NCBI GenBank assembly: GCA_016188575.1
Contig: JACPHN010000086.1
Span: 1-64,000, forward strand
Direction: 5' to 3'
From: Candidatus Schekmanbacteria bacterium
GTDB taxonomy: Bacteria; CSSED10-310; JACPHN01
Length of the DNA: 64,000 bases
The notes beneath the pieces were generated by a model. The model was not told the origin of the DNA. It worked only from the letters and a program-made list of their open reading frames with translations, and did not search any database. This document shows positions 15,888-40,744 of this stretch, in pieces. The first letter of the stretch is position 1, and the number at the start of each line of letters is the position of its first letter. The translations under genes were made by a program, and so were the position numbers.

Positions 15888-15955
15888 AGATGAGAGTATT
15901 CCCCTGTGGTAAGTACGCGGGGCGATGCTGTTTTCTCAGAACATGGAGGCACGAA

Positions 15956-16138
15956 GTGGCGACTGAACCCGAGAGAGATGAGCCTGAGCGAAAAAGCGGC
16001 GAGGTGGTCAAGGATTTGACGGAGCTCACCGAGGACGATCTGCGGATCGAGGAGCTGGAGAGCCGGGAGACGCCAGGGGCAGTTACCGACTCTGGCGGAA
16101 CTGGTTGGCACGGGAGTATCAGGGAATCCTACTCGTAG
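15956..16138 (+). CDS. Candidate RiPP precursor peptide, 60 residues
   Basis: The GTG at 15956 has a strong ribosome binding site (GGAGG, six-base spacing) and lies 69 bases downstream of a near-consensus promoter. The peptide has a charged, acidic N-terminal two-thirds (PERDEPERKSGEVVKDL, then LTELTEDDLRIEELESR) and a Gly/Ser/Thr-rich tail of about 20 residues (TPGAVTDSGGTGWHGSIRES plus YS). The tail has seven Ser/Thr, one Trp and no Cys. This shape, acidic helical leader plus small-residue core, fits a substrate for a LanB-type dehydratase, and a split LanB lies 9-12 kb away. No database match is claimed. An in-frame start at 15890 would add 22 residues but has a worse context. It is divergent from the GspE-like gene. 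Alternatives: a small regulatory protein of the downstream kinase, or an unrelated hypothetical. Confidence 0.6.
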   Translation: MATEPERDEPERKSGEVVKDLTELTEDDLRIEELESRETPGAVTDSGGTGWHGSIRESYS

Positions 16139-16415: not shown

Positions 16416-19400
16416 GTGGGGCCTCAGGGTGGCGCTCCGGCGCCAGGGGTGAGCGCCCAGGCTCGAGGGGCCGCCGGGCGGGCACCGGGTGCAGTCCAGG
16501 GGGAGGGGGCACCGCTCCCGGGCCTGGCTGGTATTCGCACGGATGGCCAGCGCTACGAGGTTCGCGCCCTCCTCGGAAAAGGCGGCATGGGCGAGGTGTG
16601 GCGCGCCTTCGACCGAAAGCTGCAGGTGGAAGTCGCGCTCAAGCTCGTCTGGGCACAGGGCGCCGATCAGGAGCAGTTGCTGGCGGCGATCCGTCGCGAG
16701 ATTCTCGCCGCCCGGGAAGTGCACTCGCCAGGTGTTTGCCGCATTTACGATCTGGTCGAAATCGACGGCCACGACGTGGTGTCGATGGAGTACGTCGACG
16801 GGCGCACGCTCCGCGACCGGCTGGGCCGCGACGGACCTCTGAGCCCAGAGGAGACGCCGTCGATCGCCTTTCAACTGCTCGCCGGCCTGGAGGCGATCCA
16901 CGCGGTGGGCCTCGTCCATCGCGACATCAAGCCCGCCAACCTCATGATCACCCGCGCGGGCAGACTGGTGATCATGGATTTCGGCCTCGCTGTCGACCCC
17001 TGCGCGGTGGAGCTGGGCTCTTGCAGCGGCACGCCTGCCTACATGTCTCCGGAACAAGCCCGGGGCGACCTGGTCGACGAGCGGTCGGACGTATTCTCCG
17101 CCGCCCTGGTGCTCGCCGAGCTCCTCTTTGGCGAACGCCCCTCGAATCGCATCCTGCCCGCGAGGCTGCCCGAGCATCCGTGGCGCCCCCACCTGCAGAA
17201 GGCGCTCGCCGCGGATCCCGCCGAGCGGTTTCCCTCGGCCAGGAGTTTCCTGCGCGCGCTGGAGGAGACTTCGCTCGAGACCGGCAAGCTCGAAGGCGCG
17301 AATCCCTACCCCGGGCTCGAGTCTTTCACGGAGGGCAGCGCGGGGCTCTTCTTCGGCCGGGAGGCAGAAGTCGAGGCGCTTTGGAGCCGCATCGAGCGCA
17401 AGGCCCTGCTCGCTCTCATCGGCCCATCCGGCGCCGGCAAGTCGTCCCTGCTGCGGGCGGGAATCCTGGCGAACCGCCCTGCCCACTGGGGAGGGCTGTA
17501 TTTCAAGCCCGGAGCCTCGCCGTTCGATTTCCTGGCCGCCGCGCTGCCGACGCAGAGCGATGGCGAGCCCGGGTCATCCGCCGTTGACCGTTTCGCCGCC
17601 TGGGCGGGCCAGTCTCGGGTGCGGCTCGTCGTCGTCGACCAGTTCGAGGAGCTCTTCACGCTGAATCCGCCGGAAGTGCAGCGGTCCTTCGCGGCCTTCC
17701 TGGCGGAGACGGCAGCGTGCGACGGCACCCATGTGCTGCTGTCCATGCGCGATGATTTTCTGTTCCGCTGCCATGAGCTCACGGATCTCGCAGGCGTTTT
17801 CGCGGAGGTCACGCCGCTGGGGTCGCTGCATGGGGCAGCGCTGCGCCGGGCAATCGTGCAGCCGGCGCTGCGCCACGGCTACCGATTCGACTCGGAAGAG
17901 CTTGTCGACACCATGATGCGCGCGGTGGAGGGCGAACGTGGCGCGTTGCCCCTGCTGGGCTTCACTGCCTCTCGCCTCTGGGACGAGCGGGACGAAGACA
18001 CCGGCCTGCTCACCCGCGCGTCGTATGACCGGGTCGGGGGCGTTACCGGAGGCCTCGCCCAGCATGCCGAAAAGGTCCTGAGTCTGGCTGGCCCGGCCCG
18101 CCTGCCGGTCGTGCGCGAGCTTTTCCGCAACCTGGTCACCTCGGCGGGGACCCGCGCCGTGCGCCCCGTCGGCGCGCTGCTGTCGCTATTCGACGACCCG
18201 CAGCCGGCGCGCGAGGTCATCGACCTGTTGGTCCGCACGCGACTACTGAGCGCCTTCGAAACCTCGGGCCAGGGCCAGCAAGTGGAGATCATTCACGAAA
18301 CGCTCATTTCGGGCTGGCCCCGGCTGGCGCACTGGCGAGATCAGGACGTCGAGGGGGCGCATTTGCGCGAGCAGCTCGCGCGAGCAGCCGAGGTCTGGCA
18401 GCAGCGCGAGCGGCCGGAGGGTCTGCTGTGGACCGGCGAAGCCTATCGCGATTTCTGCTCATGGCGCGCGCGCTACCCGGGTCGATTGACCGCGGCGGAA
18501 GAAGCCTTCGCCCGGAGCATGATCCACCTGGACCGGCGCCGGCGCCGCCGGCGCCGCCTGGCGGGCACGATCGGCGCCGCGATCCTCGGGTGCTTTTTGG
18601 TGGCAGTCAGCGCGCTCTACCTGCGCGCCGAGACGGCTCGGCGGGCGAGCGACGCGAGCCGGCTCCTGGCCCTCGGGCAGCTCGAAATGCGAACCAGCGC
18701 CACAGGCGCGCTGGCCTACGCGACGGCGGGCCTGGAGATCGACGACACCGAATCCGGCAGGGGCTTCGCGATGGACGCTCTCGCGCACGGCCCGACCGGG
18801 CTCTGGGTGCGGCAATCCGCTGATATCGTGTGGGAAGTGGCCTTCAGCCCGGACGGCGAATGGCTCGCCCTGGGCAACGGCGACCGCTCCATCGAGCTCT
18901 GGAAGCGCGATGGGGCGGCGAGCCGCCGGTGGCAGGCTCACGACGACGCGGTGAGGCGCCTGGCTTTTGCGCTGGACGGCGCCACCTTGGCGTCCCGCGG
19001 GTCCCCAACCGGCCCCATCCGTTTCTGGTCGATCCCAGGGGGCGAGCTCCGGGGGGAGATTGGAGGCAGTGCTATCAAGGTGTTCCCGCGTACTTGGGAC
19101 CGGTCACCGCTTTTCTACTCCTTCGAAGGGAACCAGAGCACCTTCGCGGCGTACCACCCCGAGGGGGGCGTTGGACCTCCGCTGCTTCGACTGGATTCCT
19201 GCCCCACCGCGGGAGTGGCGATGAGTGCGGGCCTGGTCGCCGTCCTCTTGGAGGACATGGTGACCATACGCATTTTTCGCCTCGAGCCGAGTGGGCCGCG
19301 AGAGGAGGAATCATTGACCGCTTCCGGATCTGCTTTCAGGAAGTTGGCGATCTCCGCGAGTGGCAGGGTTCTCGCGGCAGCACGCGCGGATGGCGGGATC

Positions 19401-20717
19401 GAGCTCCTTTCGCTCGGGAGTCGGGCGAGTGACCGGCGCCGCCGCCGGCTCGCCGGACATCAGCAGAATATAACCGCGCTGGCCTTCAGTCGGTCCGAAG
19501 CACTCCTCGGCTCGACCAGCCTGGACGGCACGGCGCAGATCTGGGATTTGACTCTGCCCGGCGTTTTCGCGCCGCTGGTGTTGCAGATCGGCGCGGTAGA
19601 CCAGATGAATGACATCGTGTTCCATCCGGAGGGCAGTTGGGCCCTGACTTCGACCAGCCGCGGGGCGCTGATGTGGCCTCTGAGCCGGTCGCGCGCTCGT
19701 GTGCTCGCGAGCGAGAGAGATGCAGTTCGGTACGCTCTGGTCACGGCTGGCTCGCGTTACCTGGTGTCCTCCCACGCGAGCGGCGCGCTGCACATCGTGG
19801 ACCTCGGCCACCCGAACGCCGAACCCCGCGTCTTGCGCAGCCCCGGCGGGCATAGCTGGTCCAAGATGGCGGCGGATGGGGCGGGGAAGCGCATGATCGT
19901 GGGCCACACGTGGGGGGTCCCAACACTCGTGTCCGTAGAAGAAGGCACGACGCAGGTGCTCAAGGGGTTTCATGGCCCGGTCGAGGCGGTGGCAATCCGC
20001 GGCGACGGTCGTCTGGCCGCAGCCGCCGGGGGCGCTCTGGGCCCAGCGGATGCCGTGATTCGGGTCTGGGATCTGGAAACCGGGGCGGTGCGCGTACTGG
20101 ACGAAGGGCACGGAAGAGAGATGTGGAGCCTCGTGTTCCTGGACGGCGACCGACAGCTCGCCTCGGCGTCGCTCGGAGGTCTGCACCTCTGGGACCTGGG
20201 CAGCGGCCCGGTGCGGCGACTCTGGAGTGAGCCCACTCGATTCGTAGCGGCTGCTCCGGACGGTAGGACGCTACTCGCCGGCATGGCTGATGGGACGCTG
20301 ATGAGCCATGACCTCACTACCGGCGTCTCCATTCCCCTCCCCTTCCACGGCAACCGGGTGTTCGCGGTCGGTTTTGGTCCGGATGCGCGCACGATCATTA
20401 CGGGGGACGACGAGGGCGTGGTTCGGTACGGCCGGATGGGCGAGGAGCCCCACTTGCTGTACGGCCACGAAGGCACGGTCAACTCGGTTAGCTTCGATCC
20501 GCAGGGGAAGTGGATCGTCAGCGGAGGGATGGACGGTACGGTGCGCCTCTGGCCGGTGCCACAGGGCGCGCCCCTGCACACCCTGCCTCACCGCGAGCTG
20601 CTGGCGCGGTTGCGGTCGCTGACCAACGTGCGCGCCGTCGAGGAGGAGTCCAGCCAGACCGGCTACGCGCTGGCCGCCGAGCCGTTTCCCGGCTGGGCGA
20701 CGACGCCAACCTGGTAG
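16416..20717 (+). CDS. Ser/Thr kinase fused to STAND NTPase and WD40 propeller
   Basis: The product is 1433 residues from a GTG at 16416 with GCGAGG upstream. The kinase domain is at about 46-285: LLGKGGMGEVWRAFD at 52-66, Lys76, HRDIKPANL at 168-176, MDFGLA at 187-192 and MSPEQ at 210-214. An nSTAND1-type NTPase domain begins with NPYPGLESF near 296 and FFGREAEVEALW; Walker A GPSGAGKS is at 336-343 and Walker B RLVVVDQFEELF near 403-414. A TM helix follows at about 713-733 after an Arg cluster, and then many WD40 repeats (FSPDGEWLALGNGDRSIELW, later NSVSFDPQGKWIVSGGMDGT). STAND-WD40 proteins are signal-triggered switches; the kinase is presumably the output. It is the first large gene downstream of the candidate precursor peptide (about 280 bases), so a regulatory link is possible but unproven. 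Confidence 0.92.
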   Translation: MGPQGGAPAPGVSAQARGAAGRAPGAVQGEGAPLPGLAGIRTDGQRYEVRALLGKGGMGEVWRAFDRKLQVEVALKLVWAQGADQEQLLAAIRREILAAREVHSPGVCRIYDLVEIDGHDVVSMEYVDGRTLRDRLGRDGPLSPEETPSIAFQLLAGLEAIHAVGLVHRDIKPANLMITRAGRLVIMDFGLAVDPCAVELGSCSGTPAYMSPEQARGDLVDERSDVFSAALVLAELLFGERPSNRILPARLPEHPWRPHLQKALAADPAERFPSARSFLRALEETSLETGKLEGANPYPGLESFTEGSAGLFFGREAEVEALWSRIERKALLALIGPSGAGKSSLLRAGILANRPAHWGGLYFKPGASPFDFLAAALPTQSDGEPGSSAVDRFAAWAGQSRVRLVVVDQFEELFTLNPPEVQRSFAAFLAETAACDGTHVLLSMRDDFLFRCHELTDLAGVFAEVTPLGSLHGAALRRAIVQPALRHGYRFDSEELVDTMMRAVEGERGALPLLGFTASRLWDERDEDTGLLTRASYDRVGGVTGGLAQHAEKVLSLAGPARLPVVRELFRNLVTSAGTRAVRPVGALLSLFDDPQPAREVIDLLVRTRLLSAFETSGQGQQVEIIHETLISGWPRLAHWRDQDVEGAHLREQLARAAEVWQQRERPEGLLWTGEAYRDFCSWRARYPGRLTAAEEAFARSMIHLDRRRRRRRRLAGTIGAAILGCFLVAVSALYLRAETARRASDASRLLALGQLEMRTSATGALAYATAGLEIDDTESGRGFAMDALAHGPTGLWVRQSADIVWEVAFSPDGEWLALGNGDRSIELWKRDGAASRRWQAHDDAVRRLAFALDGATLASRGSPTGPIRFWSIPGGELRGEIGGSAIKVFPRTWDRSPLFYSFEGNQSTFAAYHPEGGVGPPLLRLDSCPTAGVAMSAGLVAVLLEDMVTIRIFRLEPSGPREEESLTASGSAFRKLAISASGRVLAAARADGGIELLSLGSRASDRRRRRLAGHQQNITALAFSRSEALLGSTSLDGTAQIWDLTLPGVFAPLVLQIGAVDQMNDIVFHPEGSWALTSTSRGALMWPLSRSRARVLASERDAVRYALVTAGSRYLVSSHASGALHIVDLGHPNAEPRVLRSPGGHSWSKMAADGAGKRMIVGHTWGVPTLVSVEEGTTQVLKGFHGPVEAVAIRGDGRLAAAAGGALGPADAVIRVWDLETGAVRVLDEGHGREMWSLVFLDGDRQLASASLGGLHLWDLGSGPVRRLWSEPTRFVAAAPDGRTLLAGMADGTLMSHDLTTGVSIPLPFHGNRVFAVGFGPDARTIITGDDEGVVRYGRMGEEPHLLYGHEGTVNSVSFDPQGKWIVSGGMDGTVRLWPVPQGAPLHTLPHRELLARLRSLTNVRAVEEESSQTGYALAAEPFPGWATTPTW

Positions 20718-20997: not shown

Positions 20998-21279
20998 ATG
21001 GGTAGATTTCTCATGCGCACACAAAAAGCGGTTTACAATTTTCATGTCCCGTTGCCGCAGCATCTCTATGAGGCCCTGCGCAAGGAGGCGCAGCGGAGTC
21101 GCGAGTCCGCGACGCGCATCGCCCGAGAGGGTATCGAAATGCTCTTGAAGGAACGCAGACGGCGCCAGATCGCCGACGAGATCAGAGCTTTCGCCGAAGA
21201 GCTCGCCGGCACCCGCTTCGACCTTGACCCGGATCTCGAAGAGGCTGCGGTGGAGCGTCTCCTCGACGAGAGAGGATAG
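20998..21279 (+). CDS. Antitoxin, ribbon-helix-helix type, of a MazEF-like pair
   Basis: The product is 93 residues from the ATG at 20998, which has GAGGAGGGA about a dozen bases upstream; an in-frame ATG at 21013 is an alternative start. The N-terminal part (KAVYNFHVPLPQHLYEALRK) and the following helix (ESATRIAREGIEMLLKERRR) have the strand-helix-helix pattern of CopG/RHH DNA-binding proteins. The acidic C-terminal tail (LDPDLEEAAVERLLDERG) is the likely toxin-neutralising segment. Its stop codon abuts the toxin ATG directly. It should repress its own promoter through the 20904-20924 palindrome. Confidence 0.78.
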   Translation: MGRFLMRTQKAVYNFHVPLPQHLYEALRKEAQRSRESATRIAREGIEMLLKERRRRQIADEIRAFAEELAGTRFDLDPDLEEAAVERLLDERG

Positions 21280-21639
21280 ATGAGACGAGGCGATCTTTTC
21301 TGGGCTGACATACAACCTCGTTCCGGATCGGAGCAACAGGGAACACGACCTGTCGTCGTGCTCTCACACGATTCGTTCAACGATGTTTCGGCGTGGCGAT
21401 CCGTAATCGTTGTTCCTATCTCGACATCGGCACGACAGGCCGCGCGCGGGCCAACTGTCGTCACACTTCCGAAGGGAACTGGCGGGTTGACTGAGGAGAG
21501 TGTCGCGATTGCGCACCAGATCACGACGCTGGATCGATCGAAGCTGAACAATCGGATCGGGACGTTGCCCGCTCAGTTCGTGACGCAGCTCGAACGGGCG
21601 ATCCGGAACGCCCTTGATCTGACCGAGTCGGCCGATTAG
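21280..21639 (+). CDS. MazF/PemK-family endoribonuclease toxin
   Basis: The product is 119 residues with the complete family core: MRRGDLFWADIQPRSGSEQQ at the start, GTRPVVVLSHDSFND, then VIVVPISTSARQA and HQITTLDRSKL. MazF/PemK toxins cleave mRNA at short sequences. The RGD/W start and the GTRP loop (start of the S1-S2 region) are intact, so it is probably active. It is co-transcribed with the antitoxin (zero-base spacing). The 122 bases after it lead to the convergent radical SAM gene and contain no obvious terminator. The pair may serve as a stabiliser of this accessory region. Confidence 0.9.
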   Translation: MRRGDLFWADIQPRSGSEQQGTRPVVVLSHDSFNDVSAWRSVIVVPISTSARQAARGPTVVTLPKGTGGLTEESVAIAHQITTLDRSKLNNRIGTLPAQFVTQLERAIRNALDLTESAD

Positions 21640-21761: not shown

Positions 21762-23915
21762 CTACTCGCTCCCCCTGAGCTGGCGCTGGCGGAGATACGT
21801 TTTGAGGCCGATGAATCCCGAGGGGTTTTGCCAATCCTCCGCGTGGCGGTACGGATAGCGCACGGCCAGGCTCAGCAGCCGCCCACCCTGTTCGAGCAGC
21901 AGACCCATCGCGGCGAGCTCGGCAATCGCTCCGGGGATCTCGGAAGCGTCGACGCGCGGGTTCGCGCTGAGAGGTGCCAGCGTTGGCAACGCCCGGCGAG
22001 ACCGCGCCGAATCGCACGCCACGAGAATCGCCGCCGCCGCTCCGGTGAGCGTGACCTCGCGCACGCGCGCGCCAGGGCGGGTGTCGACGATCTCGACGCC
22101 ATCGCCAACCACGCGCATGGCCAGCTCCGGGCGCTCGCCGGCAGGGCGCTTCCAGAGATCCCGCCACTCGCGAACGATCGCGCGCACGCTGGCGAGGCCC
22201 AGGCGGGACGACTCAAGGGCGGAGCTCGAATCCTCACCGCCCGTTTCCCCGCCCTCCCCGAGGTAATGCGGCGGGGACGGCTGCAGGCCGCGCTCGTTCG
22301 CGTCCTCGAAATAGTACGCCAGATTCGCCAGCGTGGGAGCATCCACGGGATAGATCAAGGAATAGGCGTGGTACGGTACCAGCGCAATTCCATGCTGCTC
22401 GGCCAGGTCGTAGTAGGGGCTGAACCGACTGTAGCGGATGCGGAAAATCCCGCCCGGAGGTTGAAGGTGCACGAGCAGCGGCAGCCAGCTTGCCATCCCC
22501 GCGTACCATTCGTCCCGCTCGCCCGGGAACCGCGACAGGAAATGCCAGGCGACGTCGATGCCGAGCTCCCGACACCAACGGAGAAGCTGGATGTTCATCC
22601 ACGCGCGGTTGCTCTTGCCGAACGACTCCAACACCGCATCGCTCATGCTTTCGATGCCGGGCTGGATGCGGTGGACCCCGGCATCCGCCATCGCCTTCAG
22701 TTGCTCGCGTTTCAGATTAGCTGGGGTTTCATAGAAGAGGTGATGGGTTCGCCCGGACGCTGTGAGCCGAGGCAACACCGAGCGGATATGGGCCGGGTCG
22801 ATGATGTTGTCCAGGACCATGAATCGCCGCGTTTCGTAGCGATCGCCCAGCGTGAGGAACTGAGTGACAGCCCTCTCCGGGGAGCACGCCCGGTAGCGAA
22901 TCCCCACGCCATTGAGGCCGCAAAATGCACAGTGGTGTTTCTCTCCCCACCAGCACCCGCGGGCGGTCTGGATGGGCAGGGCCGGGCGGATGAACCTGCC
23001 GATCGGGCTCTGGCGCAGCGCGGCGAAGTAATCGTCGAAGTCGGGAATGGGCAGGCGGTCGAGGTCGGCCACCACCGCGCGGGGGGGCTCGGGAACGCCA
23101 CGGGGGCGGGACAGGCGGGGGCGGGAAGGCATCACGCCTTGGGGGAGACGCCCTGGATCGAGGTCCCGGCCGTGCTCGAGAACGAGCTGGCACAGCTCCG
23201 GGAACAGCAGATCCGCCTCGCCGGACACGACGAAATCGACCCAGGGAAACGCGTGCTGAACCGCCTCGCCCATCTCGGCTTCGCAGTTGGCGCCGCCCAT
23301 CATGGTGATGACCTCCGGAGCCACCGCGCGGATGCGGCGCAGCAGCGCCAGGGAAGCACAGTGCTGGTCAAAGGTGGAGCTACAGCCGACGATCTTCGGC
23401 CCGCGCTCGAGGATACGGGCGGCGACCGCGTCGACGAAGATGGACGCTTGCGCTCGCGCATCGCGCAGGACCTCCTTCCAGCGTCGCTCGTCCCCGCGCT
23501 CGGCCGTCCCCACGGCGACCTGGGTGGCCACGGTCTCGAGGTAGGCGTCGCAGTCAGGTTGGAAGTCCGGAAACGCGGCGGCCGCGAACGTCCACTCCCC
23601 AAGCAGGTACGGCGGACCAGTGGCGGCCGCGATCGCGAGGTACACATCGAGGCCGATGGCCTCGGCGAACGCAAAGTCAGGGTAGAGGACTTCGCAGCGA
23701 AGCGACGAGACGCGCAGCGAGGCCTTCAACAAGCCCAGTGCGAGCGACGGGCGATTGAGCTGTGCAATCGGCATTTGCACGAGACAGACATCTATTGCGG
23801 GCTTTGACTCCTGGTGGCTCTCCCGTGCCGGCGGATTCGACGCCGAGCCGCTATCTTCGGCGGCTACCCGCCCTCCGGCGGACCCGCTGGCTCCCGCCGC
23901 GCCCCACAGGGTCAC
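21762..23915 (-). CDS. RiPP maturation radical SAM/B12-binding protein 1
   Basis: The product is 717 residues. The GTG at 23915 overlaps the stop of the AKR-like gene in a GTGA arrangement and has GGAGGGGATAC in front, so translation is probably coupled. Residues about 40-100 hold VQMPIAQLNRPSLALGLLKA, followed by a B12-binding (Rossmann-like) region at about 165-260 (PKIVGCSSTFDQHCASLALL, MMGGANCE, VDFVVSGEAD). The 4Fe-4S motif is ARGCWWGEKHHCAFCGLNG at 318-336, with Cys321, 329 and 332 in C-x7-C-x2-C spacing, as is typical of RiPP maturation radical SAM protein 1 rather than the classical C-x3-C. These enzymes modify precursor peptides, in several cases as B12-dependent C-methyltransferases. 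The peptide substrate is unknown here. It is the second gene of the AKR-rSAM minus-strand operon. Confidence 0.9.
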   Translation of the reverse strand: MTLWGAAGASGSAGGRVAAEDSGSASNPPARESHQESKPAIDVCLVQMPIAQLNRPSLALGLLKASLRVSSLRCEVLYPDFAFAEAIGLDVYLAIAAATGPPYLLGEWTFAAAAFPDFQPDCDAYLETVATQVAVGTAERGDERRWKEVLRDARAQASIFVDAVAARILERGPKIVGCSSTFDQHCASLALLRRIRAVAPEVITMMGGANCEAEMGEAVQHAFPWVDFVVSGEADLLFPELCQLVLEHGRDLDPGRLPQGVMPSRPRLSRPRGVPEPPRAVVADLDRLPIPDFDDYFAALRQSPIGRFIRPALPIQTARGCWWGEKHHCAFCGLNGVGIRYRACSPERAVTQFLTLGDRYETRRFMVLDNIIDPAHIRSVLPRLTASGRTHHLFYETPANLKREQLKAMADAGVHRIQPGIESMSDAVLESFGKSNRAWMNIQLLRWCRELGIDVAWHFLSRFPGERDEWYAGMASWLPLLVHLQPPGGIFRIRYSRFSPYYDLAEQHGIALVPYHAYSLIYPVDAPTLANLAYYFEDANERGLQPSPPHYLGEGGETGGEDSSSALESSRLGLASVRAIVREWRDLWKRPAGERPELAMRVVGDGVEIVDTRPGARVREVTLTGAAAAILVACDSARSRRALPTLAPLSANPRVDASEIPGAIAELAAMGLLLEQGGRLLSLAVRYPYRHAEDWQNPSGFIGLKTYLRQRQLRGSE

Positions 23916-24904: not shown

Positions 24905-25906
24905 ATGACGAAGGATTGCTTGCAGACGATCTTATCTGCGTGGGAGGCGCGGGGCAAGGGCGAACGGCTCGCCGCGCTCGCGCAGGGTGCGGGGATGACG
25001 CCGCACCGCCTGATGTGGCTGACAGAGCGTTTCATCGCAGGCGGGCTCGACCGTGTTGCCAGGGCGAGCGACGAGCTGGGTTGGGTGCAGATCGGCCTGA
25101 TCGTCTCACCGCAGGCAAGCGCCGAGGCGATCGGGCACTCGAGCCTGCTCGCGGTCGTGTCCCGCTGGCAGGGCGAGGGCCTGATCCGGCGCTTCTGGTT
25201 CATGCGCAAGCCGCCAGGATTCCGGCTGCGATTCGAAGTGCCCGCCGAACGGGAGGACGAGCTGCGGCGAGCGGTTGAGGATCTCGTTCGGGACCTGATC
25301 GCGAGCGGCGCGTGCGGAGGCCACGAGCTCGGAATCTATGATCCCGAGGTGTTCCAGTTCGGCGGCGAGGCGGGGCTGGAAGTCGCTCACGACTGGTTCG
25401 CTGCGGACAGCCTGCTGTGCCTGGAATACCTACGGGAACGAGCCGGCGGCAGGGCGGCGCCGGCGCCCATGGTCATGGGCTTGATGGTGACACACCACCT
25501 GTTCCGCGGCGTCTGCCTTGACGACTGGGAGGCGTGGGATTGCTGGCGGCGGATGGACCTGGCGGGTCGACGGCCGCCGGTTTTCGAGGACACGCGCCCG
25601 GAGGTCGAAAAGCGTCATCGCGCGGTGCGCGCCCGACTGGCCGCGCTCGTCGCGGCGCATCGCGAGCTCCCGAATCGGCTTGGCGGCGAGCTCGGCCGGA
25701 TGCTCGGCCAGTGGTACGAGGCCAACCGCCGGGCGACCGCGGGCCTGGCGGCCGCCGCGAAGCGGGGCGAGCTGCTGTACGGCCCGCGCCTCATCGTCCC
25801 GTGGATGGCCATCTTTCACTGGAACCGCCTCGGCCTGGCAATCGTCGATCAGCATAGCCTCGTCTACCAGATGCAAGCGTTGCTCGACCCCAAGCAGGAG
25901 CGCTGA
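24905..25906 (+). CDS. Stand-alone SpaB_C (lantibiotic/thiopeptide-type) elimination-domain protein
   Basis: The product is 333 residues from the ATG at 24905, with AAGGA five bases before it. Residues 1-50 are a small helical cap (CLQTILSAWEARGKGERLAA). The rest matches the thiopeptide-type bacteriocin biosynthesis domain, with WVQIGLIV, FWFMRKPPGFRLRFEV at about 97-112, YDPEVFQFGGEAGLEVAHDW, and a C-terminal MAIFHWNRLGL. In full-length LanB this domain removes glutamate from glutamylated Ser/Thr to leave dehydroamino acids; stand-alone versions do this, or cycloaddition, in thiopeptide pathways. The matching LanB glutamylation protein is the convergent next gene (31-base gap). The two halves of one activity are on opposite strands. 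Confidence 0.88.
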   Translation: MTKDCLQTILSAWEARGKGERLAALAQGAGMTPHRLMWLTERFIAGGLDRVARASDELGWVQIGLIVSPQASAEAIGHSSLLAVVSRWQGEGLIRRFWFMRKPPGFRLRFEVPAEREDELRRAVEDLVRDLIASGACGGHELGIYDPEVFQFGGEAGLEVAHDWFAADSLLCLEYLRERAGGRAAPAPMVMGLMVTHHLFRGVCLDDWEAWDCWRRMDLAGRRPPVFEDTRPEVEKRHRAVRARLAALVAAHRELPNRLGGELGRMLGQWYEANRRATAGLAAAAKRGELLYGPRLIVPWMAIFHWNRLGLAIVDQHSLVYQMQALLDPKQER

Positions 25907-25936: not shown

Positions 25937-28639
25937 TCACGCCAGTGGCAGGGTGACATACAGGTCGTGCGCAAATGCCTCGGGCTCGGGCAAGACCTCC
26001 GTCACGGTCACCCTGGGCCCCGCGGGAGCGCCAGGGTGCAGGGCCGCTTTTTCGAGCGCCAGCAGGGACAGGGGATTTTCGAAATCCACCAGCAGGGGAG
26101 GGCGATTCGCGGCAGTGCACACGTACGCTCGCACCGGGATTCCGTGCTGCTCCCGCCATTTGCGAACCGCGCGGACCGTGGCCAGTGGTCCGCCAGCAGC
26201 GTCGAGCGCGGGCACCGAGCTCCACGCGAACCGCCACGCCTGGCGGGCCAGCACCACCCGACCGAGCTCGAGCCGCGGGGTACGCGGCCCTGCGACGAGC
26301 TCCGGCTCCAGGACAGGGCGATGGCACGGTATCGCATGGCGGTGCATGAAGGACTCGGCAAGCAGCGTGGCCGCGGGCGAGCAGTGAGTGCCCAGAGTCC
26401 CGTGGTATACGGGAAGGACGGGGACGCCGAGTCGCCGCGAGCGGACCTCCACCTGGTCATGGGCACCGAGGGAAACGTCGAGGTCGGCCACAGGCAGAAC
26501 CCGGACACCGTGTCGCTGGCGGCCGGTCGGGATCCCGTGGTGGCAGGCGATGGCCGCCGGGAACGGGCAGGGGCGGGCGGCGAGATGCGCGCCCCAGCCG
26601 TGGCCGCAGTAGACCTCGGCGACGAGATGGTCCGGATAGCGCTGCTGGAGCCGCTCCGCGTGGCGGCGAAACGCCGCGTCGAGCGCCTCGAGCGCGGTGC
26701 CGGGCGCGCCGCCGCAAACCTGAGCGAGCGGAATCAAGAAGCGCGAGATCCGCGTCCACCCAGGCGCAGACAGGACATGGAGCACCCAGGCGCGGTCGCC
26801 GTCTCCGGGCGCGAAAAGCTGAATGAGCACATCGAGCGCCAGCGGGGGAAGGCGCTCCTCCGAGGTATCGGGCGCCGTGTCTCCAAGCAGCGCCTGCACG
26901 TCCGCGCGGCAGAGGCGCACCACCTCCCCCCCCGCCGCAAGCGCACGGGCACAACGGTCGCGCAGCAGCTCGTGGTAGCGCTGCCGCAAATCGCGCCCGA
27001 CCGCCGTCGCCGGGCAGGCCGCGCGCGCGTGGGCCGCCCTCCAGCCCGCCGCATCTTTCGGGAGCTCGATCCATTCCCCTGCGTCCAGCGCGGAGGCACT
27101 GCCCGCAACGCGGAGCCGCTCCACCACGGCCGGCAGCCATTGCGAAGAGGCGCCGATCCGAAGCATGAGGGATACGTAATCCGCCAGCTCCTCTCCCAGC
27201 GGGGCGAGCGCGTTCGCACCGAGCTCGCCCCCCCAGTCCCCCAGCACGAGCTCCGCCTGGACGAGAGTCCGCATTGGGTACAGGTCGCCGTCTGGTTGTA
27301 GAATTTTCCGGGAGTCGATCCCGAGCTCGCCGAGGCGTTCGGCGATCCTGGCGCCGGTCACCGCCGGCCAGGGCGCGCCATCCGCAGCGTTCTCCCGCAC
27401 CGCACAAATCGCGATCACCTCGTCGACCTTTCGGCGCGCGGTCGCGGCCGCGCTCTCATCGGCATCGCCGGGAGTGCTCCCGGTTCCTGCTGGCATCGCC
27501 TGGCGAACCGCCGCGAACGGTTCGGTGTCGAATGGCAGGGCCTCGACACCCAGACCGAGAACCTGCGCGGCCAGCAGCGCGCGGATCGGGCGCAGCAGCG
27601 CCTCCGGGTCAGCGGCGCCGTCCAGGGGGGTGCCGAGCGCGGCGAGCAGCTCCGCCACCGTCCGCTCGCCATCAGCAGCCAGCTCGATCAGCCGGGCAAC
27701 CGTCGGGTGCGCTCGCAGGCGTCGCCGCTGCTCGACTCGGTGCTCGCGCAATCCCCAGAGCTCGAAGTGCTCCCCCTGTCGCCGCAGGGTAGGATTGACG
27801 TAGGCACGCAGGTCCGGCAGCAGGGGTCGAGCGACGCGCTCCACAAGCACTGCGCTCGCGGGCCAGACTGGCCGCACCAGGGGATCGCCCGAGGTGACAG
27901 ATGCGGGTGGCGGCAGCGGACGAGCGGTAGGAACGTTGCTGACGGGAATCGCCTGGACTCCGGCGAAAAGACCGTGCGCAGTGGGGCGGGCGCATGCCCG
28001 GGCGAAGTATCGAAACAAGGACTGGACCGCCTGGCGGAAGCGCTTGTCCGCCAGTGTGGAGGCTCGGCGCAAGGCCAGACCGGGAAGCTGGCCGGCGAGC
28101 TGCGGATTGGCCAGAGCAAGCGCCGAGCGCAAGGGGTCCTCGCCGAAACCGGCGATGAGCCACGCGGCGCTCTGCACGAGCGCCCGCTCCAGGCGCGCCT
28201 CGAGGCATTGCTCACGCGGGGCGCGCGCGGAGGACGCGGCGGCGAGCCCGAGCGCGCAGTGCAGCAGGCGGATCTCGGCGGGCGTCGCGGCACTCGACCC
28301 GGCTGGCGCCAACCGCTGCTCGATGCGCGTCTGGAGCGCGGGGGGCAAGCGGAAGGGATCCTTGCGCAGGCGACGGATCACGTCCAGAAACAGGGCGCGA
28401 TCGGCGCCGGACCCGAGAACCGCGAGCCCCGCGGCGAGCTCTCCCCGCAGGCGCACCGCTTCGGCCTCGCGCTCGACATCGGAGTCGAGCAGCTCGCCGG
28501 TCTCGCGGCGAATCTCCGGCGGCAGCAACTTGTCGAGCGCATCGAAGCGCAGCACGGGCGAGCGCAACACGGCCGCGGCGGGTAACGCATAGGTCGCGGG
28601 CGAAGGCGGTCTGCTCGGAGTCGGGTCGAAGCAGGTCAC
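25937..28639 (-). CDS. LanB-type lantibiotic dehydratase, glutamylation part only
   Basis: The product is 900 residues from a GTG at 28639 with GAGGTG seven bases upstream; an ATG at 28705 (22 residues longer) is the alternative. Family features in order: AAAVLRSPVLRFDAL near the start; FRYFARACARPTAHGLFAGV in the first third, corresponding to the usual R-TPFGLFAG; then YVNPTLRRQGEHFELWG, a central ILQPDGDLYPMRTLVQAEL, and a final LLVDFENPLSLLALEKAAL. The size fits a split LanB that ends before the elimination domain. It would glutamylate Ser/Thr of a precursor peptide using Glu-tRNA. Small LanB proteins can also act as peptide aminoacyl-tRNA ligases. The presence of a separate SpaB_C gene favours dehydration. 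No LanC cyclase gene is found nearby. Confidence 0.9.
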   Translation of the reverse strand: MTCFDPTPSRPPSPATYALPAAAVLRSPVLRFDALDKLLPPEIRRETGELLDSDVEREAEAVRLRGELAAGLAVLGSGADRALFLDVIRRLRKDPFRLPPALQTRIEQRLAPAGSSAATPAEIRLLHCALGLAAASSARAPREQCLEARLERALVQSAAWLIAGFGEDPLRSALALANPQLAGQLPGLALRRASTLADKRFRQAVQSLFRYFARACARPTAHGLFAGVQAIPVSNVPTARPLPPPASVTSGDPLVRPVWPASAVLVERVARPLLPDLRAYVNPTLRRQGEHFELWGLREHRVEQRRRLRAHPTVARLIELAADGERTVAELLAALGTPLDGAADPEALLRPIRALLAAQVLGLGVEALPFDTEPFAAVRQAMPAGTGSTPGDADESAAATARRKVDEVIAICAVRENAADGAPWPAVTGARIAERLGELGIDSRKILQPDGDLYPMRTLVQAELVLGDWGGELGANALAPLGEELADYVSLMLRIGASSQWLPAVVERLRVAGSASALDAGEWIELPKDAAGWRAAHARAACPATAVGRDLRQRYHELLRDRCARALAAGGEVVRLCRADVQALLGDTAPDTSEERLPPLALDVLIQLFAPGDGDRAWVLHVLSAPGWTRISRFLIPLAQVCGGAPGTALEALDAAFRRHAERLQQRYPDHLVAEVYCGHGWGAHLAARPCPFPAAIACHHGIPTGRQRHGVRVLPVADLDVSLGAHDQVEVRSRRLGVPVLPVYHGTLGTHCSPAATLLAESFMHRHAIPCHRPVLEPELVAGPRTPRLELGRVVLARQAWRFAWSSVPALDAAGGPLATVRAVRKWREQHGIPVRAYVCTAANRPPLLVDFENPLSLLALEKAALHPGAPAGPRVTVTEVLPEPEAFAHDLYVTLPLA

Positions 28640-28753: not shown

Positions 28754-28782
28754 TTGATCCACCCGACAGGGAATGATATGAT
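28754..28782 (+). promoter_or_regulatory. Predicted promoter of the export operon
   Basis: TTGATC at 28754-28759, a 17-base spacer and TATGAT at 28777-28782 (five of six matches to the -10 consensus) face the HlyD lipoprotein gene. The predicted start of transcription, near 28789, coincides with the left arm of an inverted repeat. Confidence 0.6.
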
Positions 28783-28788
28783 TGCCAT

Positions 28789-28815
28789 CCACCTGGAGGG
28801 CGAATCGCCAGGTGG
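28789..28815. promoter_or_regulatory. Inverted repeat, possible operator
   Basis: CCACCTGG (28789-28796) and CCAGGTGG (28808-28815) are perfect 8-base arms separated by 11 bases. The element lies at +1 to +27 of the predicted export-operon transcript and between the divergent LanB and HlyD genes, so a regulator bound here could control one or both. It could also act as an RNA hairpin in the leader. Confidence 0.5.
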
Positions 28816-28879
28816 CGGTGTGGGTGACAATGTGCTGCGCGAGATGGGAGTGAAGGCCTTGGATTACGGTACTGCGAGG

Positions 28880-30028
28880 ATGTCGCGCCGCCTCATCGCC
28901 GTCGTTATCGCGGGTGGGTTGTGCTTGCTGGCAGGCTTGCCGGCCTGCACCGGCGGGGAGCGGAGCGCCGCGGTCGCCGCCGCCGCGCCGGTCCCGGATG
29001 AGCGGCCGCGCCCGCCGCGCCCGCAGCGCGTTCAGGTCGTGACAGTGCGGCCACAACGACTCGAGACGGCCGTTGAAACGACAGCGACTTTGATGCCGGC
29101 GGCTGAGGTCGAGGTATTCCCGAAGGTCACGGGAGTTTTGGCTGAGCTACTCGCCGAGGAAGGCTCGCGCGTGCGCAAGGATCAGATCCTCGGAGTCGTG
29201 GAGGATGGGCGGGCCAGGACCACTGCTGGCCTGCGAGGCGCCGAGCTCGCCAATCAAGAGAGTCGCCTGCGCCGCACGGAGGTCACCTCGCGGAGTGGCC
29301 TCACGCCCGAGACCCAGTTCGAGCAAATGCGCTTCGAGGTCGATTTCGCCCGCTACCGCCAGGAGCTCGCGGCTCTCGATCTCGAAGACACGCGCATCCG
29401 CTCGCCCATTTCGGGCACGGTCACCCGGCGCTACTGCCAGCTCGGCCAGCGGGTCACGCCGGACGACCCGGTGTTTCTGGTCACGGATCTCACCGTGCTC
29501 AAGGCACAGGTTTATCTCCCCCAGGAGCTTCTCGGCCGCGTCGCCGCCGGGAGCCCGGCCGAAGTTGTGGCGGCCGGCATCGGGGCGACCGCCGAGGCGC
29601 GGCTCGAGCGCATCGATGAGCGACTCGATCCGCGCAGTGCAACGGCCCGCGCGCGGCTGCGAATCCTGGCCCCAGCCGCGAGTCCCCTTCGTCCCGGCAT
29701 GGCGGCCAGCGTGCGCATTCCCCTCGCCGCCTCGCCGCTCACCATCCTCGTTCCCCGCGCGGCCTTCGCGCTCAGCTCGGCCGCCGACCAGGTTTTCACG
29801 GTACGGCAGGGGACGCTGCAGCGCCGCCGCGTCACCGCTCGCCCCTATCGCGGCGACCTCTTCACGGTGGAAGGCGATCTCGCCGCCGGTGAGCAGGTTG
29901 CGGTTGGCACCTTTCCCGACGGCAGCCGCCTGGTCGAGGGTGCTCCCGTGACCGTGGAGGAAACGCCGCTTCCCCCGCTACCGGCGCGGGTCTTCCCGGA
30001 TCCGCGGGACCGCGGCGACAGCTCCTAG
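28880..30028 (+). CDS. HlyD/AcrA-type membrane fusion lipoprotein
   Basis: The product is 382 residues from the ATG at 28880 (GCGAGG directly upstream); in-frame codons from 28742 are ignored because this start opens a signal peptide. The lipoprotein signal is LLAGLPACTGG, with Cys23 the likely lipidated residue, although Pro at -2 is atypical. A biotinyl-lipoyl domain (EVEVFPKVTGVLAELLAEEG at about 75-95), a short hairpin and the second lipoyl half (DTRIRSPISGTVTRRYCQLG) follow, then beta-barrel and membrane-proximal domains. It is the periplasmic adaptor of a tripartite export system. It is co-transcribed with the PqqD-M50-HlyD gene (8-base gap). No inner-membrane pump is encoded alongside. 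Confidence 0.9.
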   Translation: MSRRLIAVVIAGGLCLLAGLPACTGGERSAAVAAAAPVPDERPRPPRPQRVQVVTVRPQRLETAVETTATLMPAAEVEVFPKVTGVLAELLAEEGSRVRKDQILGVVEDGRARTTAGLRGAELANQESRLRRTEVTSRSGLTPETQFEQMRFEVDFARYRQELAALDLEDTRIRSPISGTVTRRYCQLGQRVTPDDPVFLVTDLTVLKAQVYLPQELLGRVAAGSPAEVVAAGIGATAEARLERIDERLDPRSATARARLRILAPAASPLRPGMAASVRIPLAASPLTILVPRAAFALSSAADQVFTVRQGTLQRRRVTARPYRGDLFTVEGDLAAGEQVAVGTFPDGSRLVEGAPVTVEETPLPPLPARVFPDPRDRGDSS

Positions 30029-30036
30029 CCGCGCCG

Positions 30037-32178
30037 ATGGTCGGCTCCTCGGCTCGCACGACGACCTTTTCTCCGGCCGCGGAGGAAGCAGGGCCGGATC
30101 GCTTCAGTCCGCGCCCCTGCCTGCGCCGGGACCTGGTGATCACCGAACAGGTTCGCGACCAGAAAACCACGTTCGTGATCAAGAACCCGGCGAGTCAGAC
30201 TTACTTCAGTTGTGGATCCGTCGAGATGAAGCTCCTCAGCCTGCTGGACGGCTCGGTCACCGTCGACGGGCTTGCCAACGCGGCACGCGAGCGGCACGGG
30301 CTGCGCCTCTCGCTCCGCACGGTGCAGACCTTCCTCGCCGAGCTCAAGCGGCGTGAGCTGCTCGAGCGCAGCCCCGCAGAGGCGCTGTTGCTCCTCCGGG
30401 AACACCAGCTCGCCAGGCGCAAGCAGGCGCGCCGCGGGTTCGCAGGTCGCTACCTGGTAATGAGCTTCTCGCTGTTCGATCCCGACCGCCTGCTCGGATA
30501 TTTCGAGCCGCGCTTGCGGTTTCTCATGTCCCGCCCCGTGCTGGCGGTCACGGCTGCGCTGGTCGCAGCCGGTTTCGCTCGCATCTTGCTGAGGGGAATG
30601 AGCCTCGAGCCGGGCGAAAGCCTTGGTGTCGTGCCCTGGAAATGGCATCACCCGTTGCTCACCTTCCTGCTGCTGCAAGCCACGTTAGTGGCCCACGAGC
30701 TCGGCCACGCCTTCGCCTGCAAGCACTACGGCGGCGAAGTGCGGGAAATCGGCCTGATGCTGTTCTACTTCACCATGCCGGCGATGTATGTGAACGTGTC
30801 CGACGCATGGCTCTTTCCCGCGCGCCGCCAGAAACTCTGGGTCACCTTCGCGGGCGGCTACGTCCAGGCGACCTTGGGGGCGGCGGCGGGTATCGTCGCG
30901 ATGCTGATCGGGACCGGCAGCGAGCTCACCATCGTCCTGGACCAGGTATTCGTGATGACGTGCGGTACTGCCTTGCTCTTCAATTTCAATCCGCTGATCA
31001 AGCTCGACGGCTACTACGCGCTTGTCGACATTCTGGAGGTGCCACGGCTGCGCGAGCGCTCCTTCGCCTATCTCCGCCGGTGTCTGGCCGCGGCGGTCGG
31101 CCATGCGGCTGCGGAGACGTCGCCGGACCCGACTCTTCGTGAGCGCCGGATTTTCCGCCTCTACGGAGTGGCAGCCGCCCTGTACACGGGCATCTTTCTG
31201 ACCGTTGGCTTGAGCGCGATCGCCCAGGCGCTGGCGGCAAGCTACCAATGGGTCGGCGTCGCGGTGTTCGCTCTGCTGGTGGTGCGCCTGGTCGGCTCGC
31301 AGGCGCGCAAGGCGGGGAGCGTCCTGGTCTCGAGCCTCCGGCGACGAGCGGGGCGCCGGCGGGCGCTGGTGAGCATCGGGGCGGTGCTCATGCTGGCCGC
31401 GCTGGCGGTCTTTGGCAGGGTTTCGCGCGAGGTCCGGGGGGAGGGTCACATCGTCGCCGCCTCGGAAATCGCATGGCGCGCCCCCCGCAGCGGAATCGCC
31501 ATACCCGCCGTGGGCCGCGGGGCAGCGGTGGTGCGCGCCAACAGCATAGTGTTCGAAATTCGGGATCACGACCTCGAAGCGCGGCTGGATGACGCCCGTC
31601 GCGAGCTCGAAACTCAGCACTGGTCGGTGCTTCAGGCGGCTGCCGGCGACGATTCGGCCGCGGCAGCGGTGCTGGGCGCGCGCGAAATGTCGCTGAGAAG
31701 CCGGGTGGCGGCGCTCGAGCGCGAACGCGACGCGACCGTCGTCCGTGCACCATTCGATGCCATCGTCTTGACGCCGCGCTTTTGGCAACGCGCTGGGCAG
31801 GCAGTATCCGAGGGCGAAGAGGTTTGTCGTCTTGGTGACGCGAAGGCCGTGTACTTTTCGGCCATGGTCCCCGCAGTCGACGTCCTGGGAGCTCGGCCCG
31901 GCGCTACGGTGAGGGTTCGCCTCCGCGCGCGCCCCCAGGTAGCGCTGACCGGGACCGTAGTCAGCGTCGCGAGCGAGCCCATCAAGGCGGAGGATGCCGA
32001 AAACAGGCGCGACGAGTCGCTTTATGAGGTGCGCGTGGCGCTCGAGGCGGCTGACGCCGGGGTTCGCCTGTTGCCCGGGCTGACTGGCGTGGCGGCGATC
32101 GACGCGGGCACGCACAGCCCCATCGACGCCGCCTGGCACGCCATCCGGCGGGCGGTGCGGGCCGACCTCTGGGTGTGA
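30037..32178 (+). CDS. PqqD-M50 protease-HlyD fusion protein
   Basis: The product is 713 residues. Residues about 28-115 form a PqqD-like winged-helix domain (RRDLVITEQVRDQKTTFVIK, DGSVTVDGLANAARERHG), the RiPP leader-recognition fold. A multi-spanning site-2-protease (M50) part carries HELGH at 220-224, the zinc motif, and FNPLIKLDGYYALVD at 317-331 with the third ligand Asp324. After further TM helices, a TM at about 450 leads to a HlyD segment (IAWRAPRSGIAIPAVGRGAA, later TVVRAPFDAIVLTPRFWQRA) and a beta-barrel. One polypeptide thus combines likely peptide binding, intramembrane proteolysis and periplasmic adaptor functions. Related fusions occur in RiPP clusters. It probably removes the leader or exports the modified peptide (inference). 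Confidence 0.88.
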   Translation: MVGSSARTTTFSPAAEEAGPDRFSPRPCLRRDLVITEQVRDQKTTFVIKNPASQTYFSCGSVEMKLLSLLDGSVTVDGLANAARERHGLRLSLRTVQTFLAELKRRELLERSPAEALLLLREHQLARRKQARRGFAGRYLVMSFSLFDPDRLLGYFEPRLRFLMSRPVLAVTAALVAAGFARILLRGMSLEPGESLGVVPWKWHHPLLTFLLLQATLVAHELGHAFACKHYGGEVREIGLMLFYFTMPAMYVNVSDAWLFPARRQKLWVTFAGGYVQATLGAAAGIVAMLIGTGSELTIVLDQVFVMTCGTALLFNFNPLIKLDGYYALVDILEVPRLRERSFAYLRRCLAAAVGHAAAETSPDPTLRERRIFRLYGVAAALYTGIFLTVGLSAIAQALAASYQWVGVAVFALLVVRLVGSQARKAGSVLVSSLRRRAGRRRALVSIGAVLMLAALAVFGRVSREVRGEGHIVAASEIAWRAPRSGIAIPAVGRGAAVVRANSIVFEIRDHDLEARLDDARRELETQHWSVLQAAAGDDSAAAAVLGAREMSLRSRVAALERERDATVVRAPFDAIVLTPRFWQRAGQAVSEGEEVCRLGDAKAVYFSAMVPAVDVLGARPGATVRVRLRARPQVALTGTVVSVASEPIKAEDAENRRDESLYEVRVALEAADAGVRLLPGLTGVAAIDAGTHSPIDAAWHAIRRAVRADLWV

Positions 32179-39132: not shown

Positions 39133-40431
39133 TCACGAAAGCCGCCCGTCCTCCGCGACAAACGCGGCGAAGCCTCGTCGGTCCCGGGTCGCTTGCGCGA
39201 TGCGCGTCATCGCCTCCTCGAGGTCGGGCAGTCCCGTGGCGATCGAGATTCTCAGGAAGTGCTTGCCTTCGGAGCCGATTATGCCGAACGAGCGCCGGTC
39301 CATCACGGCGAGGTGGTAGCGAAACAGCAGGAACATGCGGAAGATCGTCGCCGGGCTCGTGGTCGAACGTCGGGCCGCAGGAAGCGACGCGTAGAAGTCG
39401 ATCGCTCCCAGGTCCTGCAGCGCCCCGCCTACGTTTGGGAAAACGTAAAACGCGCCCTTCGGCTGCTGACAGGTGATGCCTGGAATGGCGTTTAGACGGC
39501 TGACGACAACGTCACGCCGCTCCTGGAAAGCGCGCACCATCCTCGCTATTTCCACAGCGCTCTCGGGCGCTTCGATCCCGACCTTGGCGCCCATCTGGTT
39601 GTAGGCGGGGACGCAGGAGAAGTAGTTGATGTTGAGCGTCTTGAAGTGCGCCGCTTCGTCCGCCGTGGGGAGCACCGCCCAGCCGAGCCGGCCGCCCGTC
39701 CAGGAATAGCTCTTCGACACTCCGGAGACGATCAAGGTCCTTTCGGCCATGCCCGGGAGGCTCGCTATCGAGAAGTGCGTGCTGCCGTCGAAGAGGATCT
39801 CTTCATAGACCTCGTCGGAGTACACGCGCGCCTCGGCCGGCGCGCGGTCCCGAATCACAGCGGCGATGGACAAGAGCTGATCGCGAGAGGCGACGCCACC
39901 CGTAGGGTTGGAGGGAAAGTTGAGGATGATGAGCTTGGTGCGCTCGGAAATGAGCGGAGCCAGGTCGTCCCCCGTACAGGCGAAGCCTTTCACCTCTTCG
40001 AGATGCTGCGGCACCGGCCTCGCCGCGACGTACCCCGCCAACGATTCATAGATCGGAAATCCGGGGCTCGGATAGATCACCTCGTCGCCGGGGTCACAGT
40101 ACGTCTGCAGCGCAAATGCGATGGCCGGCTTCGCGCCGGGGAGCACCACGACGCGCTCGGGCGAGATGCTCATGTGGCGGCGCCTGCCCATGTCGCGGGC
40201 AATCGCCTCGCGTAAGGGCAGGATGCCTTGCGGGTCACAGTAGTGCGTGAGGTCGAGATCGAGCTGCCGTTTGACTTCCGCCGAAATGTGCCGGGGCAGC
40301 GGAAAGTCGGGTTCGCCCAGGTTGCACTTGATGACGCGGTGGCCCGCTTCCTCGACCTCGCGGATATAGGGTCCCACTTTGAACGCGTTCTCCGTGCCGA
40401 TGAGCTCGGCGCGCTTCGCGAAGATTCCCAT
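39133..40431 (-). CDS. Class I/II pyridoxal-phosphate aminotransferase
   Basis: The product is 432 residues from the ATG at 40431 with GGGAG eight bases upstream; longer in-frame starts run into repeat-rich intergenic DNA. Fold-type I features: IKCNLGEPDFPLP, VVVLPGAKPAIAFALQTY, YPSPGFPIYESL, LNFPSNPTGG, and the PLP-lysine region VSGVSKSYSWTGGRLGW. The C-terminal half has PGITCQQPKGAFYVFPNV and a substrate Arg in HFLRISIA. A stretch after AIDFYASLP (AARRSTTSPATIFRMFLLFR) is longer than in typical aspartate aminotransferases. It is the first gene of the operon with the transketolase-like gene. Confidence 0.9.
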   Translation of the reverse strand: MGIFAKRAELIGTENAFKVGPYIREVEEAGHRVIKCNLGEPDFPLPRHISAEVKRQLDLDLTHYCDPQGILPLREAIARDMGRRRHMSISPERVVVLPGAKPAIAFALQTYCDPGDEVIYPSPGFPIYESLAGYVAARPVPQHLEEVKGFACTGDDLAPLISERTKLIILNFPSNPTGGVASRDQLLSIAAVIRDRAPAEARVYSDEVYEEILFDGSTHFSIASLPGMAERTLIVSGVSKSYSWTGGRLGWAVLPTADEAAHFKTLNINYFSCVPAYNQMGAKVGIEAPESAVEIARMVRAFQERRDVVVSRLNAIPGITCQQPKGAFYVFPNVGGALQDLGAIDFYASLPAARRSTTSPATIFRMFLLFRYHLAVMDRRSFGIIGSEGKHFLRISIATGLPDLEEAMTRIAQATRDRRGFAAFVAEDGRLS

Positions 40432-40744
40432 GTCGTTGGCTCCCGGCGGCCGCGTTTCAATGCGCAGCGATGAGCTGCTCGAGCGAAGGTGCATCCGGCA
40501 GTCTAGGCTGCCCGGGCCATCGAGGCAAGCTTGTGGCTGGCGGGCGGGAGCGGCGGGCGGCGGGCGGCGGCACGCCGCCCCGATCGAGCGAGTAGGGCAG
40601 CCCTGGCCGCGGCGCGGGTGAACCCGCCATCGACGAGGTCCGCCCGCGACCACATGCCCGGCGTATTCGCCGGCGAGAAGGCTTGGGAGGGGAGCAAGAA
40701 TAACTTGAACAACTTCGGTCAAACTGCAGGGCCTCTGGGCTGCA

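Follow-up and report, generated by a model that had tools for sequence, protein, structure and literature searches.

A leader tag beside RRE-M50-HlyD fusion proteins points to a little-known bacterial export route

How might a bacterium bind a leader-bearing precursor, cut it and hand it to export from a locus in which no ABC transporter gene can be found? The question is raised by one gene in the window, as we call the whole 64,000-nucleotide stretch analysed here. Positions 30037-32178(+) hold a single open reading frame of 713 residues, and its product is made up of an N-terminal PqqD-like RRE, a site-2-protease (M50) core and a C-terminal HlyD/MacA-type adaptor, as seen in domain searches, motif alignment, predicted structure and fold matches. 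The original prediction had read these three parts in one protein; domains, motifs and fold matches agree with it, and the same order recurs in relatives. Its further proposals, that the protein binds a modified peptide, cleaves the leader and hands the product over without an ABC transporter, need to be weighed against the neighbouring genes, the wider family and the candidate cargo.

Three domains in a recurring order

Pfam searches with the whole protein give a clear HlyD_3 match (E 2.9e-9), and M50 (1e-4) and PqqD (a single weak match, E 0.07) below cut-off; the evidence for these two parts comes from relatives, profile searches and folds. The N-terminal PqqD/RRE domain spans residues about 27-114 (30115-30378(+)). 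PF05402 is matched at E<=0.01 by 12 of 60 relatives, and a profile built from 58 N-terminal domains retrieves eight PDB sequences up to E 1; five are RRE/PqqD proteins (TbiB1, PqqD 3g2b, PaaA, PqqC/D 5sxy and TfuB1; E 0.004-0.35). AlphaFold models, with mean pLDDT of 87.5 and 89.0, predict a strand-strand-strand-helix-helix-helix fold at the N-terminus. The RRE-M50 half was modelled separately, since every Foldseek match listed for the full-length model was an adaptor. Aligned with VIA-align to RREs that hold a leader peptide in their structures, the domain scores Z 10.3 against TbiB1 and 10.1 against TfuB1, so the PqqD fold on which the earlier reading hung is the one predicted.

Alignment and motif search place HELGH at residues 220-224 (30694-30708(+)) and the second site-2-protease motif, NFNPLIKLDG, at residues 316-325 (30982-31011(+)). 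In site-2 proteases, the metal site is made up of HExxH and NPxxxxDG-type motifs. Both are intact here (HExxH and NPxxKxDG), and seven residues never vary across the 60 alignment rows: H220, E221, H224, N318, P319, D324 and G325. The M50 fold matches RseP (Z 11.0), SpoIVFB (9.7) and mjS2P (9.5) in VIA-align. The adaptor part (residues about 462-693; 31420-32115(+)) is recognized by Pfam HlyD_3, in the predicted model and by Foldseek, which matches the C-terminus to MacA/MexA at E 1e-11 to 1e-8. An RRE before the membrane part and an adaptor after it is an arrangement that fits binding, cutting and export in sequence.

When an alignment was used as the query against genome contigs, relatives proved to be encoded in 303 of 363 candidate stretches; the same search with the window protein as single query returned none. 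Of these 303 loci, 80 were retained (L053-L132), from Planctomycetota, Zixibacteria, Acidobacteria, Gemmatimonadetes, Verrucomicrobia, Nitrospirae, Bdellovibrio-type bacteria, Magnetococcales, Latescibacterota and others. The 60-row alignment holds the window protein and proteins from 59 of the 80 loci, the other 21 being truncated, fragmentary or not chosen; two further alignments, with short N-termini removed, have 58 and 57 rows. Because RRE, M50 and HlyD recur in fixed order across relatives, a chance fusion or assembly error is ruled out.

Just upstream of the fusion gene lies a stand-alone RND_mfp/HlyD adaptor (28778-30028(+); TIGR01730, 173 bits), whose true start may be near 28880, with a lipoprotein-like N-terminus. 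A 660-residue GAF-HlyD adaptor, of a family found by domain and neighbour analysis beside M50-HlyD genes elsewhere, is encoded at 11899-13881(-), 16 kb from the fusion gene and not adjacent to it. On the same strand, 5 bp upstream of the GAF-HlyD gene, a domain scan and motif search find an MshEN-domain protein (13887-15680(-)) with CxxC pairs and no P-loop, which by eye we take to be GspE-like; it has no relative among the other loci. Genes were called with a purpose-written script rather than a standard tool. Of the 80 loci, 75 gave a gene call above 350 bits, and among these GAF-HlyD occurs within six genes at 22, a short HlyD at 22 and a TolC-like protein at 13. The presence of partner adaptors divides the family tree in 2 changes, compared with 18.4 in shuffles. 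The window protein (P0001), with HlyD adjacent and GAF-HlyD 16 kb off, resembles the partner-linked type in length; it forms a lone long branch in the tree, a point against the reading favoured below.

A leader motif shared with daptides

Known systems come close to this protein from different sides. Its top NCBIfam match is NF041824, the daptide intramembrane metalloprotease MpaP/DapP, at 223.1 bits over residues 40-424, short of the equivalog cut-off of 300. Window protein and daptide peptidase have in common an N-terminal RRE, M50 motifs and an ELExxxxP leader in the substrate (a candidate one in the window), and they differ in the HlyD part carried here. The YydH/LiaK epipeptide proteases (NF058609) are alike in M50 core and RiPP context, with a match confined to the core (residues 208-336) at 47.7 bits, far under the cut-off of 225. 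All 60 aligned proteins match both models. According to the available text of PMC10036551, daptide precursors share a conserved leader motif, ELExMEAP, their leader is taken off by an RRE-dependent intramembrane peptidase (an RRE-site-2 protease), and their clusters come with ABC transporters, in contrast to the window, where none was found; cleavage falls 'after the ELExxxxx motif' in the accessible part of PMC12338566.

On the other side, an export module of M50-HlyD, GAF-HlyD and HlyD proteins, lacking an ABC transporter and located near secondary SecA_DEAD proteins, was described by Kamneva et al. 2015 (PMC4452313), who, in the portion available, propose for it a role in secretion in which the M50 part could form a pore and SecA_DEAD supply ATPase activity, and call its broader biological role 'completely unknown'. 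All three module proteins are present in the window; a secondary SecA_DEAD protein was not found, and RiPP genes are an addition. PqqD does not figure in the main text of that paper as available, nor does a leader motif in its sections 16 and 17. A literature search that covered few subscription papers found none linking M50-HlyD with an RRE or an ELExRIAP-type leader.

Is there such a leader near the relatives? Neighbour clustering revealed recurring small ORFs beside the M50-HlyD gene, with N-termini like EELEERIAPG. A strict scan for a 9-residue pattern, restricted to six-frame ORFs that follow a Shine-Dalgarno-like site at the 80 loci, found the N-terminal ELExRIAP motif 46 times between -3.5 and +4 kb of the M50 match (592,680 bases; 29 of 80 loci) and three times in the remaining 576,917 bases, at three further loci, where it lies close to the start of larger ORFs (108-2,079 aa); reversed DNA gave no match. 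A looser earlier scan had matches in 37 of 84 loci, against 3 matches in reversed DNA. Across 50 whole genomes holding the gene (44 chosen for no motif seen near it and 6 with the motif or a variant near it), 57 matches in 13 genomes compare with 1 for the backward pattern. These matches are not independent, coming from related genomes and often several to a locus. No Pfam or NCBIfam family above cut-off covers the motif-bearing small ORFs, and the link of the motif to RRE-M50-HlyD genes is new as far as the searches reach.

The motif is far from universal, and this counts against the leader-directed reading. Its strict form is absent from the examined stretch at 48 of 80 loci, and 36 of the 44 genomes selected for lacking it near the gene have it nowhere. 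Among 145 Verrucomicrobiota genomes, the centre genome included, 6 have a pattern match, and an RRE-M50 match occurs in at least 30, among the matches listed; the pattern is matched in 3 of the 30 genomes with RRE-M50 (among the matches listed) and in 3 of the 115 others. A universal RIAP motif is thus rejected, missing as it is from many loci, many whole genomes and most Verrucomicrobiota, and RIAP is at most one leader dialect. A 123-residue ORF near another RRE-M50-HlyD gene (L049:15182-15553) is built of 15-residue units with seven EL[EQ]EKEAP motifs; no other among 1,051 called proteins has E[LM][EQ]xxEAP within 60 residues of its start, and the ORF is perhaps a multi-leader substrate.

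The register of the motif is that of daptides. ELEERIAP and ELExMEAP are of equal length, an 8-residue register that starts with E-L-E and ends with A-P. At a daptide-type locus, whose protease passes the NF041824 cut-off with 369 bits, small ORFs ending in Thr carry FEEMEAVTAP followed by D, and MELLEDVAAP and FEEMESVTAP each followed by G. Against a matrix whose sole source was the RIAP leaders found at the 80 loci, with the window excluded, these three ORFs score at shuffle P 7e-4, 5e-5 and 1.5e-4. Of two other RRE-M50 RiPP-like loci, one (L148) scores at P 0.005; the other (L052), which lies in the window's own genome, has a precursor without a significant score (P 0.08), a further point against the leader-directed reading. 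L148 (2568-6960) holds a Cys-rich 49-residue ORF, two radical SAM proteins and an RRE-M50 protein, with ABC genes alongside. L052 (contig C199) encodes a radical SAM protein with CxxxCxxC, a 63-residue precursor-like ORF containing Cys, Trp and Ser, a 324-residue protein and an RRE-M50 protein lacking HlyD.

The candidate precursor and its neighbours

Within the window, the candidate substrate is a 60-residue ORF at 15956-16138(+) that starts with GTG, 6 nt after a ribosome-binding-like GGAGG (15945-15949(+)), and ends in ...LTEDDLRIEELESRETPGAVTDSGGTGWHGSIRESYS. Its leader ends in ELESRETP (16052-16075(+)), and a cut after the Pro, predicted from the register given in the available parts of PMC10036551 and PMC12338566, would release the 20-residue core GAVTDSGGTGWHGSIRESYS. 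Among the 169 short ORFs of the window it has the highest score against the RIAP matrix, 22.6 bits, far ahead of the second at 3.0, and its shuffle P of 5e-5 is the floor of 20,000 shuffles. A loosened motif picks out the same ORF only among 76 Shine-Dalgarno-preceded short ORFs at 10-36 kb. A precursor nearer the protease gene was also sought and rejected, the short ORFs listed in the gaps of 20.7-35.3 kb having no motif. The window precursor ends in Ser, whereas daptide precursors have an invariant C-terminal Thr; of the daptide decarboxylase, aminotransferase and methyltransferase genes, only a class I/II aminotransferase (39133-40494) appears among 19 Pfam-scanned window proteins. Two points count against this candidate. 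The DNA pattern EELExRxxP occurs three times in the genome (the other two not near an ORF start) and its backward control nine times. The ORF is also 14 kb away from the protease gene, separated from it by a kinase-WD40 gene and the RiPP enzymes. The former, at 16449-20717(+), follows the precursor ORF, precedes the RiPP genes and encodes a 1,422-residue kinase-nSTAND1-WD40 protein. A toxin-antitoxin pair follows at 21013-21639(+), with a PemK/MazF-type toxin (21280-21639) after a small antitoxin-like ORF.

The RiPP enzymes comprise a B12-binding radical SAM protein of the RiPP C-methyltransferase family (21762-23774(-); TIGR03975, 678 bits), a lantibiotic dehydratase C-terminal domain (25082-25867(+); PF14028, TIGR03891) and, encoded apart from it, the LanB-type N-terminal protein (25937-28555(-); PF04738, E 1.7e-37). 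The export module flanks them, with its GAF-HlyD side at 11.9-15.7 kb and its M50-HlyD side at 28.8-32.2 kb. The core has Ser and Thr and no Cys, so that thioether rings within it are precluded and dehydration and C-methylation possible. Judged from proximity, there is about an even chance that the LanB-type and radical SAM enzymes act on the 60-residue peptide. Relatives of the window's RiPP enzymes were not found at any of the other loci. Because no other locus examined has a LanB-type protein among the genes called, the RiPP connection is special to the window, and a general RiPP association of the family is unsupported.

Could the cargo instead be unmodified? The protein may serve as an exporter or a processing protease for ordinary secreted proteins and peptides whose leaders are of the ELExxxxP type; the LanB and radical SAM genes would then belong to an unrelated neighbouring RiPP pathway. 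The other loci speak for this: besides the missing LanB, only four CxxxCxxC proteins were found among the genes called there, one of them from the own-genome locus L052, and several genomes have very large ORFs (1,250, 967 and 1,597 aa, for example) that carry the motif close to their start. The window itself speaks against it, since there the RiPP genes lie between the two sides of the module and the motif is missing from every other short ORF at 10-36 kb, which would leave the RiPP enzymes with no better substrate in sight. On balance this alternative is a serious one, falling a little short of even odds.

At the other loci, Gly/Ser/Asn-rich peptides or very large proteins seem to be the cargo. 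Motif-bearing small ORFs at L062, L081 and L113 have Ser/His/Lys/Gly-repeat tails, and others are Gly/Asn/Pro-rich with YEGQPGNQ repeats. In four genomes (G103, G096, G099 and G100; L137-L143) LExRIAP stands near the N-termini of very large ORFs scattered genome-wide, with up to 16 matches per genome. Many cores outside the window look hydrophilic, unlike those of daptides, so that access to an intramembrane active site is hard to explain; this too counts against the leader-directed reading.

A proposed path from leader to export

We give a probability of about 0.6 to the reading in which the fusion is a leader-peptide receptor, an intramembrane leader peptidase and a periplasmic adaptor in export. 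The cytoplasmic RRE would bind the precursor leader, most likely that of the 15956-16138 product, through E-L-E-x4-P, as fold and motif suggest. The split LanB-type enzyme may first dehydrate the core, and the radical SAM enzyme may C-methylate it, ahead of the cut; this step is proposed from gene proximity. The site-2-protease core would then cut in the membrane right after the Pro, between ELESRETP and GAVT, a site proposed because the daptide protease has the same architecture and motif register. Finally, fold and conserved gene neighbourhood suggest that the HlyD part, the adjacent HlyD and GAF-HlyD could form a periplasmic conduit to a TolC-type channel encoded elsewhere, two TolC-like queries having found no outer-membrane channel in the window. 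Binding, cleavage and hand-over to an adaptor, as originally predicted, are still the best reading, because of the fold matches, the daptide precedent and the shared leader motif; the modified state of the cargo, also part of that prediction, is a possibility raised by the nearby RiPP genes.

Adaptors normally need a pump. In type I secretion and tripartite efflux (HlyBD-TolC, MacAB-TolC) the adaptor fold is alike, and here a regex search found no ABC transporter gene in the window, its sole match being the kinase-nSTAND-WD40 protein. In the genome, 93.8% complete, a search for SecA gave a single PF07517 match; a secondary SecA_DEAD protein, and with it a motor of that kind, was not found. It may be, then, that the fusion only cleaves the leader, with HlyD for docking or regulation and transport left to a conventional RND, ABC or MFS pump elsewhere. 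In its favour, there is no pump gene close by, and transport by adaptors alone is as yet unproven. It is nevertheless unlikely, because M50-HlyD genes are repeatedly accompanied by partner adaptors and hardly ever by ABC genes (only 7 ABC-like proteins among 1,012 genes called at related loci), and PMC4452313, in the part available, reports no ABC transporter at such loci. Export without an ABC transporter thus gains from the window and the related loci alike; the absence of that gene does not make the fusion the sole transporter, given the partner adaptors at 28778-30028 and 11899-13881. A regulated-intramembrane-proteolysis role on an anti-sigma factor or the like, with an incidental motif link, would suit the RseP- and SpoIVFB-like catalytic fold and is very improbable, as it leaves the RRE and HlyD parts, the NF041824/NF058609 matches (60 of 60) and the motif association unexplained.

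For the family as a whole, a broader version of the leader-directed reading can be put forward tentatively, at slightly less than an even chance: RRE-M50-HlyD proteins would constitute an ABC-free, leader-directed export system of diderms, in which the RRE reads an ELExxxxP leader that daptides also have, the intramembrane protease cuts it and the product leaves through fused and partner adaptors, with dialects ELExRIAP, ELEEKEAP and ELESRETP and cargo from RiPP-like peptides to proteins of more than 1,000 residues. The M50-HlyD architecture and the ABC-free module were already known; the leader tag, which recurs beside RRE-M50-HlyD relatives across many bacterial groups, suggests an export route about which little is known. 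With a tag on the cargo and a predicted cut site, the function of the module becomes directly testable, and its substrates can be sought by genome mining. If true, the reading would join RiPP leader processing with protein secretion, a union absent from the literature searched, and a RiPP-type recognition domain would also direct the export of large proteins.
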